Assembly: GCA_017561085.1 (NCBI GenBank)
Contig: JAFZDQ010000012.1
Coordinates: 1-44,226 of the forward strand
Reading direction: 5' to 3'
Length of the DNA: 44,226 nt
DNA from: Lachnospiraceae bacterium
Lineage (GTDB): Bacteria; Bacillota; Clostridia; Lachnospirales; Lachnospiraceae
A program made the translations under genes and the position numbers. Shown one piece after another: positions 42,117 through 44,226 of this stretch. The first letter of the stretch is position 1; every line of letters starts with the position of its first letter. Under the pieces are notes generated by a model. The model did not search any database, had not been told where the DNA came from, and was given only the letters and a program-made list of their open reading frames with translations.

Positions 42117-43496
42117 ATGTATCAGATTGATTTTAACCAACCCATACACATTTATTTTATCGGCATCGGCGGCATCAGCATGAGCGGTCTTGCCCAGATC
42201 CTTCTGACCAAAGGCTTTACCGTATCCGGTTCCGACAGAACCCCTTCTTCCCTTACGAAATCCCTGGAAGAAGCCGGTGTTACCGTATTTTATGAGCAGG
42301 TTTATGAAAATCTGACAAAAGATGTGGATTTGATTGTTTATACCAGTGCCATTCACGAAGGCCATCCCGAGCTTTGCGCGGCGGCTGATTTATCCATCCC
42401 CACCCTTACAAGGGCGCAGCTTTTGGGACAGATGATGAAAAACTATGCACTTCCCGTGGCAGTCAGCGGAACCCACGGCAAAACCACAACCACTTCCATG
42501 ATTTCGGAAATTTTGCTTGCGGCGGATACCGATCCCACCCTTTCCATCGGTGGTATCTTAAAATCCATCAGCGGAAACCTGCGCATCGGAAACAGTGAGT
42601 ACTTTGTAACCGAAGCCTGTGAATACACCAACAGCTTTTTGAGCTTTTTCCCGAAATACGGCATCATCTTAAATATAGAAGAAGACCATCTGGACTTTTT
42701 TAAGGACTTAGACGATATCCGAAACTCCTTCCGGCAGTTCGCCGCACTTCTGCCGGCAGACGGTGCACTGATTATCAACGGCACCATTCCTAACGTGAAT
42801 GAAATTACGGAGGGACTTGATTGTAAAGTCCTCACTTACGGTATCGGCGGGGATTATGATTACCGCGCTACGGATGTTTCTTATGACGAAACCGGGCTTG
42901 GCATCTTTACCCTTATGAAAAAGGACGGCACCTCCCTGGGCAGGTTCAGCCTGGGTGTTCCCGGAGAACATAATATTTTTAACGCCCTTTCTGCCATTGC
43001 ACTGGGAGATTTATTCGGACTTGATACGGACACCGTCAAAAAGGCTCTTGCTGCCTTTAAAGGAACCGACCGTCGTTTTGAGTACAAAGGCTCCTTTAAC
43101 GGTATTTCCGTCATTGATGATTATGCGCATCATCCCACGGAAATAACCGCAACCTTACAGGCCGCTTCCGGTTACCCGCATGAAAAAATCTGGTGTATTT
43201 TCCAGCCTCATACCTTTACCCGGACCAAAGCCTTTATGAAGGAATTTGCCAAGGCACTTTCCGCTTCCGATGAAATCATTCTGGCGGAAATTTATCCTGC
43301 CCGCGAGACAGACAATTTAGGCATCAGTTCCGAAACACTGAAGCAGGAAATCGAGGCGCTCGGAAAAACCTGCTACTATTTCCCTACTTTTTCAGAAATC
43401 GAAAAATTTGTTTCGTCAAATTTACAACCGGGTGACTTGTTGATAACTATGGGAGCCGGAGATGTTGTAAATATCGGCGAAAACCTGCTTAAATAA
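42117..43496 (+). CDS. murC: UDP-N-acetylmuramate--L-alanine ligase
   Basis: A cytoplasmic ligase that adds L-alanine to UDP-MurNAc, the first amino acid of the peptidoglycan stem. The N-terminal Rossmann domain has FIGIGGISMSGLA (14-26), the ATP loop is GTHGKTTTT (118-126), and EACEYTNSF, HFG-type NIEEDHLDFF and DDYAHHPTEI are the later Mur-ligase blocks. The length of 459 aa is normal. GGAGG stands 6 bases before the ATG. It is single, with its own promoter, and is followed by the DnaA-box region and a DnaD-like gene. Confidence 0.97.
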   Translation: MYQIDFNQPIHIYFIGIGGISMSGLAQILLTKGFTVSGSDRTPSSLTKSLEEAGVTVFYEQVYENLTKDVDLIVYTSAIHEGHPELCAAADLSIPTLTRAQLLGQMMKNYALPVAVSGTHGKTTTTSMISEILLAADTDPTLSIGGILKSISGNLRIGNSEYFVTEACEYTNSFLSFFPKYGIILNIEEDHLDFFKDLDDIRNSFRQFAALLPADGALIINGTIPNVNEITEGLDCKVLTYGIGGDYDYRATDVSYDETGLGIFTLMKKDGTSLGRFSLGVPGEHNIFNALSAIALGDLFGLDTDTVKKALAAFKGTDRRFEYKGSFNGISVIDDYAHHPTEITATLQAASGYPHEKIWCIFQPHTFTRTKAFMKEFAKALSASDEIILAEIYPARETDNLGISSETLKQEIEALGKTCYYFPTFSEIEKFVSSNLQPGDLLITMGAGDVVNIGENLLK

Positions 43497-43499
43497 TTT

Positions 43500-43517
43500 T
43501 TATCCACATTATCCACA
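43500..43517 (+). promoter_or_regulatory. Two abutting DnaA boxes
   Basis: Two perfect TTATCCACA boxes stand at 43500-43508 and 43509-43517 with no base between them, three bases after the murC stop codon. TTATCCACA is the consensus DnaA site. A reverse-oriented near match (ATATCCACA) lies at 43547-43555. Confidence 0.8.
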
Positions 43518-43546
43518 TGAAAAGCTCTTTTTCCGGGAGATTTTTA

Positions 43547-43555
43547 TGTGGATAT
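43547..43555 (-). promoter_or_regulatory. Inverted DnaA-box-like site
   Basis: The plus strand reads TGTGGATAT, so the minus strand reads ATATCCACA, one mismatch from the DnaA consensus. It lies between the two direct arrays. Confidence 0.6.
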
Positions 43556-43589
43556 TTCTTCTCATAAGAGACCCTTGATTTTACTGGTT

Positions 43590-43603
43590 ATTTTCATGAA
43601 AAT
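43590..43603. other. 14-base palindrome in the DnaA-box region
   Basis: ATTTTCATGAAAAT is a perfect 14-base palindrome between the first and second box arrays. It may be a protein-binding site; nothing links it to a known regulator. Confidence 0.45.
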
Positions 43604-43621
43604 GACAAATTTTGCCTTTTG

Positions 43622-43648
43622 ATATCCACATTATCCACAATGTCCACA
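43622..43648 (+). promoter_or_regulatory. Three abutting DnaA-box-like sites
   Basis: ATATCCACA (43622-43630), TTATCCACA (43631-43639, perfect) and ATGTCCACA (43640-43648) follow each other with no gap, all in the same direction as the first array. The outer two have one and two mismatches. Confidence 0.75.
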
Positions 43649-43696
43649 ATTGGCGCAAACCCTTGAAAACACTGGATTTTTCGGCAAAAATACTAT

Positions 43697-43724
43697 TTGC
43701 ATTTCTAAAATCTTATGTTATAAT
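43697..43724 (+). promoter_or_regulatory. Promoter of the DnaD-like gene
   Basis: TATAAT (43719-43724) has TG one base upstream (extended -10), and TTGCAT (43697-43702) stands 16 bases before it. Start of transcription would be about 40 bases before the gene. The nearest DnaA-like boxes end 49 bases upstream of the -35. Confidence 0.6.
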
Positions 43725-43771
43725 TCAACTTGCTTTTTATGAATATAAATAATTAGATTAGGGGTTTTACC

Positions 43772-44226
43772 ATGAGTCGCTTTACCGTATATCAGGATAA
43801 TTATGCTGATGCTACGCTTGTGTCCAATTTGTTCATTGATGAATATATGAAGGATGCCAACGATGCCCAGCTGAAAATATATTTGTACCTTCTTCGTATG
43901 ATGAGTGCACGTCTTGCAACCAGTGTTTCCGACATTGCGGACAAATTCAACCATACCGAGAAGGATGTTATGCGTGCGCTGAAATATTGGGAGAAGATGC
44001 GTCTTCTTTCCTTAGATTACGATGAAAACAAATCCTTAACCGGCATCCGCCTTTTGGATGTGAACCGCCGTCCCGGAGGGGATGTATTTTCCCTTGCTCC
44101 CGTGGTACAGCTTTCCTCCAAACTGCCTGTGGACAGAAGCGGCATTTCCGCACTGCCGGCAGAACGGACAGAGGCACCTTCCCTTGTAAGCAGTCCTGCA
44201 CCGGAACGTGTTTCTTTCGAGAAACC
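43772..44226 (+). CDS. DnaD-like replication protein (partial, 3' end missing)
   Basis: The first 151 codons of a gene cut by the window edge. The ATG at 43772 has AGGGG 7 bases upstream. Residues of about 15-100 form the winged-helix-like N-terminal part (NLFIDEYMKDANDAQLKIYLYLLRMM, SVSDIADKFNHTEKDVMRALKYWEKMRLLSL), as in DnaD/DnaB-type primosome proteins of Firmicutes. From about residue 115 a Ser/Pro-rich linker begins. The DnaD C-terminal domain should follow beyond the window; its absence here limits confidence. The family helps load the replicative helicase, which fits with DnaA sites just upstream. Confidence 0.75.
   Translation, partial: MSRFTVYQDNYADATLVSNLFIDEYMKDANDAQLKIYLYLLRMMSARLATSVSDIADKFNHTEKDVMRALKYWEKMRLLSLDYDENKSLTGIRLLDVNRRPGGDVFSLAPVVQLSSKLPVDRSGISALPAERTEAPSLVSSPAPERVSFEK

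Follow-up and report, generated by a model that had tools for sequence, protein, structure and literature searches.

The question raised by this locus is why DnaA boxes should be clustered between murC and a dnaD-like gene, and whether they act there as a sink for DnaA, as a control site of the neighboring gene, or in some other way. The window, i.e. the whole stretch of 44,226 nucleotides that was analyzed, represents an entire contig (C12) of a Lachnospiraceae draft genome (2,955,146 bases in 131 contigs) and ends inside dnaD. The evidence assembled below suggests that the cluster probably acts close to the origin as a reservoir for DnaA, the initiator protein of replication, and tunes dnaD as a helper gene. 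The identity of the latter gene was established across two contigs: the 151-aa piece in the window had no Pfam or NCBIfam match by itself, and the overlapping continuation on contig C3 was recognized as DnaB_2/PF07261 (1.8e-41). The end of C12 and the start of C3 overlap in dnaD with 97% protein identity over 109 aa, which suggests strain variation within the metagenome bin. On C3, dnaD is followed at its 3' side by a gene for a helicase-loader-like ATPase (IstB 1.2e-15, Bac_DnaA 2.7e-9) and farther on, by eye, by a ribose-phosphate pyrophosphokinase-like gene.

Table 1. Features of the murC-dnaD site, with positions in the window
Feature	Position	Strand	Remarks
murC (UDP-N-acetylmuramate--L-alanine ligase)	42117..43496	+	TIGR01082, 5.6e-141
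murC-internal box	43438..43446	-	TTATCAACA; codons TTG and ATA in 80/80 loci, ACT in 74/80
Array A box 1	43500..43508	+	TTATCCACA
Array A box 2	43509..43517	+	TTATCCACA; abuts box 1; 5' arm of hairpin
Predicted murC terminator-like hairpin and T-rich tail	43510..43565	+	stem 43510-43554
Inverted box	43547..43555	-	ATATCCACA; 3' arm of hairpin
14-base palindrome	43590..43603	no strand	ATTTTCATGAAAAT; between the arrays; not conserved
Array B box 1	43622..43630	+	ATATCCACA
Array B box 2	43631..43639	+	TTATCCACA
Array B box 3	43640..43648	+	ATGTCCACA; abuts box 2; two mismatches to consensus
Block CCTTGAAAACACTGG	43661..43675	+	strict form in 19/80 loci
Predicted dnaD promoter	43696..43724	+	weak -35 TTTGCA, extended -10 TGTTATAAT
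dnaD-like gene	43772..44226	+	ends at contig end; continues on G000:C3

The original prediction described six DnaA-box-like 9-mers, among them an abutting perfect pair, an inverted box and an abutting trio, and all of them were found exactly where it had located them, within 149 bases (43500-43648; five with at most one mismatch, one with two). They form an abutting pair at the murC stop codon (array A) and two or three abutting boxes upstream of the promoter of dnaD and the helicase-loader gene (array B), with the inverted box as a separate element. This six-box cluster is not due to chance. Counted in spans of 150 bp, boxes with at most one mismatch reach five in the real sequence. Of 300 dinucleotide shuffles of the window none exceeded four, a number reached in 5 of them, and none of the 300 yielded an abutting tandem pair. 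The total number of boxes in the window is unremarkable (55 versus 45.2 expected); it is their clustering that is exceptional. Across the draft genome, TTATCCACA occurs 52 times, its reversed control 18 times, and the tandem pattern (at most one mismatch) was found six times, three of these at the murC-dnaD site. A second tandem DnaA-box cluster of this genome is located near an hpf/raiA-like gene for a ribosome-hibernation factor, as judged by eye (G000:C97:963-1032, L042), and its counterpart was seen in other genomes of the order (L154, L279, L282, L285, L286, L287, L289 and L296), that is in 7 of 20 stretches examined plus L154; in L154 and L282 a secA-like gene lies on the other side.

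Two further motifs at the site were considered and rejected. The palindrome ATTTTCATGAAAAT, which had been pointed out between the arrays, is indeed present, but it did not hold up as an operator, its 12-base core being found in 0 of 79 relatives. The block CCTTGAAAACACTGG was dismissed as a regulon motif because of its only three exact genome matches (window 43661-43675, G000:C44:8310 and G000:C110:27548) and the small share of loci with its strict form; the other two copies lie, by eye, beside a lysyl-tRNA synthetase-like gene and beside a gene without a name. In the 18 loci in which both elements were recognized, the block starts 57-58 nt from the -10 hexamer of dnaD.

For comparison we used the best 80 among 331 confirmed relatives, which are Lachnospiraceae or kin according to their titles and of which 79 reach into murC (L116 does not); counts for 80 loci comprise these 79 and the window, which is L006 in the codon count. 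In these genomes, whose counts are not independent since they are related to each other, tandem array A was detected in 77 of the 79 relatives, array B in 9-nt register in 62, and at least one TCCACA beyond +90 in 76. In 61 of the 80 loci array A follows the stop codon without a gap; its boxes are spaced by 9 nt in 76 loci, and it is single in the other four; 115 of 132 spacings in array B are exactly 9 nt. Sixteen of 20 same-genus loci, read in a common orientation, have a box in murC, an array after the stop codon, an inverted box and a second array, and a single merged array was seen in four. The loss or scrambling of the arrays in close relatives had been named beforehand as the finding that would speak against the prediction; instead, the arrays are conserved. 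In the order of these genomes, which we take to be Lachnospirales in GTDB naming, a strict pattern (murC box plus tandem array A) was present in 61 of 295 genomes under 11 family labels and its reversed form in none; the strict pattern misses 234 of the 295, many of them with looser arrays. A related, less sensitive pattern applied class-wide matched 5 of 391 genomes, all from the home family, and none of 372 genomes from other orders; since it matched just 5 of the 19 genomes sampled from its own order, this absence outside the order is suggestive only.

A further box, not contained in the earlier list of six, is located within murC itself. Within the final 90 nt of murC, all 79 relatives carry TGTTGATAA (which is TTATCAACA on the opposite strand), and the three codons it covers are almost completely frozen (Table 1), whereas the Gly and Ala codons directly after it vary among the 80 loci. 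In the remainder of the same genes TTG accounts for a fraction of 0.084 of the Leu codons, ATA for 0.199 of the Ile codons and ACT for 0.226 of the Thr codons. The invariance of these codons, set against their low usage elsewhere in murC, argues that it is the DNA that is conserved here and not the protein alone. The murC box also goes together with the boxes downstream: in 30 genomes in which murC and dnaD are parted (see below) it was found in 13, every one of them with at least two downstream boxes, and it was absent from all 8 with fewer than two (13 to 0; Fisher p 0.004, kinship ignored); nine have downstream boxes and lack the murC box.

On the other side of the cluster, array B lies upstream of the predicted dnaD promoter, at a near-constant distance in close relatives. 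In the window 70 nt separate the end of the last box from the -10 hexamer. An extended -10 was recognized in 78 of the 80 loci, and the distance from the end of the last box to it is 69-71 nt in 64 of these and 78-80 nt in nine, as if in the latter one box were missing; the dnaD start codon, on the other hand, follows the -10 at a variable distance even in close relatives (40-215 nt). A spacing of the boxes that is so nearly constant would be difficult to account for if DnaA did not act at the putative dnaD promoter. Farther from the window the spacing is looser: it is 67-70 nt in only 5 of 17 further home-family loci (42-166 nt in the others, two being without a value) and 95-143 nt in the f22 loci, and in 17 of 20 f5 loci no -10 was recognized. 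The link to the promoter is therefore probable only near the clade of the window. Among close relatives, about 45 bases through the dnaD -10 (window 43679-43725) are unusually conserved, with the stretches CTATTT, TTTT and TATGCTATAAT, which is more than would be expected of an ordinary promoter.

Does the cluster then follow dnaD or murC? Among the matches listed, 149 dnaD places (the one of the window excluded) were compared with 150 tandem places; 97 tandem matches, again among those listed, fall in genomes with dnaD, and 51 of these lie 101-595 bp upstream of dnaD, all 51 on the dnaD strand, with the remaining 46 not near dnaD. For a synteny test we took 79 dnaD loci without a strict-pattern match, of which one was too short, leaving 78. 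Where murC lies upstream of dnaD, 44 of 50 loci have at least three boxes and 27 have a tandem pair (13.7 boxes per kb). Where no murC was recognized within 1.1 kb of dnaD, at least three boxes were found in only 3 of 28 loci (1.9 boxes per kb) and a tandem pair in none of the 28; an array that travels with the gene it regulates would be expected to persist there, and the test thus speaks against an array tied to dnaD alone. Conversely, murC 3' ends parted from dnaD retain at least three boxes in 20 of 30 genomes and have fewer than three in 10. Twenty-four of these 30 were carried over from the 28 genomes just mentioned, and 15 of the 24 murC ends keep at least three boxes; G264, G295, G266 and G282 were left out, the last three having murC arrays. 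The other six are G298, G110 and G176, whose arrays were known beforehand, and G279, G034 and G026; in G026 just 1.3 kb separates murC from dnaD. At 13 of the 20 box-keeping murC ends the first gene of appreciable size that follows is encoded on the opposite strand (in three of the 13 it is preceded by a short same-strand frame of 67-94 aa without support), so that there is no recognized neighboring promoter to control; nine of these opposite-strand genes have a Pfam match, e.g. to a SPOUT methyltransferase, LeuA, RNase H or a tRNA-editing-like protein. In f11, the gene after murC reads as elongation factor P in four genomes (one of them checked with Pfam), and in three f11 genomes the double array is kept before a pepF-like gene (by eye). 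These results indicate that the murC end is the primary home of the cluster, and that dnaD is a neighbor wired in by some lineages.

With regard to the chromosome, the locus is fairly near dnaA in the assemblies examined. In nine array-bearing long-contig assemblies, picked among the strict-pattern genomes (six of them single contigs, with circularity assumed for G216), dnaA and the locus are 107-651 kb apart, in all nine at most 18% of the genome. In G192 dnaD is on another contig, and murC shares its contig with the dnaA boxes, at a distance of about 98 kb. Judging by the strands on which dnaA and dnaD lie, the murC-dnaD unit runs head-on to replication in seven of the nine assemblies (G061, G068, G146, G186, G207, G289 and G292).

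The explanation we prefer, with moderate confidence and by a modest degree, is that an old DnaA-box cluster at the murC 3' end serves as an origin-proximal DnaA sink, which near the clade of the window has also become wired to the dnaD promoter. We do not place it higher because the spacing is near-constant only in close relatives. Both possibilities raised originally, a site of DnaA control or titration and dnaD as a DnaA target, thus retain support; for the link to dnaD, the spacing in close relatives speaks in its favor, and it is limited by the finding that, where the two genes have parted, boxes are retained at murC more frequently than at dnaD. DnaA would nucleate on the abutting same-strand boxes and spread as an oligomer, presumably without unwinding, as no DnaA-trio-like run was seen after either array (the sequences were judged by eye, with no count). 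The bound cluster would act as a sink near the origin that lowers free DnaA and is duplicated soon after initiation. In the clade of the window the same complex, about 80-110 bp upstream of the inferred start site, would set transcription of dnaD and the helicase-loader gene, and its position outside the core promoter favors activation over repression. DnaD of Bacillus subtilis is reported to inhibit cooperative DnaA binding (PMC13220808); if this applied here, a feedback loop would close, which is plausible.

The strongest competitor is a cluster that is solely an origin-proximal DnaA sink, similar to the DnaA-box clusters (DBCs) of B. subtilis or to datA, with the dnaD promoter as a bystander. 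It accounts for the boxes kept at murC ends parted from dnaD, often with opposite-strand neighbors, for the vicinity of dnaA in the nine assemblies, for the looser promoter spacing outside close relatives and for the second tandem cluster near hpf-like genes. A bystander promoter would, however, not give a spacing of 69-71 nt in 64 of 78 loci among close relatives, and we thus regard this explanation as possible, if clearly less probable than a sink with a promoter function. The opposite extreme, a DnaA-regulated promoter of the dnaD and helicase-loader operon with no titration role, would explain precisely that spacing as well as the common strand of all dnaD-near tandem arrays among the matches listed. 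We consider it unlikely, because boxes persist at murC where dnaD is gone, dnaD genes away from murC are mostly without boxes, and three f11 genomes keep a double array before a different gene.

An additional layer is added by RNA structure. Box 2 of array A and the inverted box are complementary and form the stem of a predicted hairpin, which extends past the boxes. The stem forms after the murC stop codon in 75 of the 80 loci, and in 70 of these at least five T are found in the 10 nt after TGTGGA, as would be expected of an intrinsic terminator; four of the 80 loci lack TGTGGA at the hairpin position. The core pairs are invariant by construction, as arms and loci were chosen through the boxes, and it is in the inner stem that covariation is seen among relatives: position +6 is T-A in 30, G-C in 25 and A-T in 13 of the 76 loci with both arms. 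These compensating pairs support an RNA hairpin, most simply the putative terminator of murC. A scan of the window for consensus terminators, with a loop limit of 8 bases, reported none. The presence of two boxes within a terminator-like stem might suggest that, together with array B, they constitute a DnaA-responsive switch, an idea that we consider rather doubtful. By occupying box 2 and the inverted box, DnaA would be a roadblock to RNA polymerase or change how the terminator after murC is used, the same oligomer on array B would set the promoter of dnaD and the helicase-loader gene, and the box inside murC would mark the upstream edge of the element; if this were true, a single element would tie a gene of peptidoglycan synthesis to the level of free DnaA and to helicase loading. 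It is far less probable that the site is a murC terminator with fortuitous repeats and no role for DnaA: the conserved stem with its T-rich tail and covarying inner pairs would fit, but box 1, the frozen box in murC, array B and its 9-nt register would be left unexplained.

That the site is no ordinary oriC, as originally claimed, was borne out by the position of dnaA, which is found on contig C109; it has its own boxes there and, by eye, rpmH-, rnpA- and dnaN-like neighbors. A second origin of replication, for which clustered boxes followed by AT-rich DNA might be taken as an argument, is the least credible explanation of all and was rejected, given the dnaA gene and its boxes on C109 and the lack, by eye, of a trio run like that in the oriC of G192. 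The latter (L157:2508-2545) contains abutting tandem boxes, then GCCC and then CTACTACTACTA / CTACTACTACTACTA; by its sequence it is a BUS-like module with exact 9-base abutment. Abutment of this kind had been called unusual, a view that was not supported, because this origin belongs to the same order; a published search for the unwinding module of oriC allowed up to 3 bp between tandem boxes (PMC8287927). Near its C-terminus the DnaA encoded at L005:5287-6639 reads GKKDHTTV, compared with GGRDHTTV in DnaA of G192 (L157).

How does the murC cluster compare with known systems? No murC-dnaD DnaA-box locus was named in the literature searched, that is in titles and the starts of abstracts, with most subscription papers outside this coverage. 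The closest parallel is B. subtilis, for which several high-affinity DnaA regions outside oriC are described, one of them downstream of both flanking genes (gcp/ydiF) and others upstream of genes (PMC4447404). Deletion of all six clusters leads to early initiation, and the same review states that the clusters have no significant role in initiation control and that none with such a role was identified (PMC5295017). The murC cluster resembles them as a box cluster outside oriC above chance expectation and in its vicinity to the origin, seen in all nine long-contig array-bearing relatives; it thus appears to match a B. subtilis-type DBC in the features based on sequence and position. Okumura, by the title of a paper of 2012, reportedly placed DnaA-box clusters in an origin-proximal position. 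In contrast, none of the regions named in the accessible text of PMC4447404 and PMC5295017 is located at murC or dnaD, and the murC cluster differs further in that its boxes extend into a coding sequence, form part of a terminator-like stem and mostly follow each other at exactly 9 nt.

DnaA-regulated promoters, such as those of sda and dnaA-dnaN in B. subtilis and of dnaB and dnaQ in Caulobacter, share boxes upstream of replication or checkpoint genes with our locus, whereas no operon of dnaD and a helicase loader with a conserved array is named among them in the accessible parts of PMC4447404 and PMC8203912. With datA of Escherichia coli, which needs IHF and promotes DnaA-ATP hydrolysis, it would share the nature of a DnaA-box locus outside oriC that lowers free or active DnaA (PMC5295017). 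The BUS of oriC, i.e. tandem boxes plus DnaA-trios, is similar in the abutting same-strand pair, as in the oriC of G192, and different in that no trio run follows the murC-dnaD box pairs (by eye). As far as can be read from the DNA, three features are new relative to the B. subtilis DBCs: the box in murC, the sharing of boxes with a terminator-like stem, and the spacing to the promoter. A study of Clostridioides difficile reports that YabA, Rok, Hda and DiaA all lack homologues there and describes DnaA control as unknown (PMC7561715). A cis-acting DnaA-box cluster under at least 11 family labels, accompanied by frozen murC codons, is therefore a concrete and testable candidate for clostridial DnaA control, and the genomes in which dnaD is gone and the cluster is kept represent a natural experiment that should help to separate titration from promoter control.
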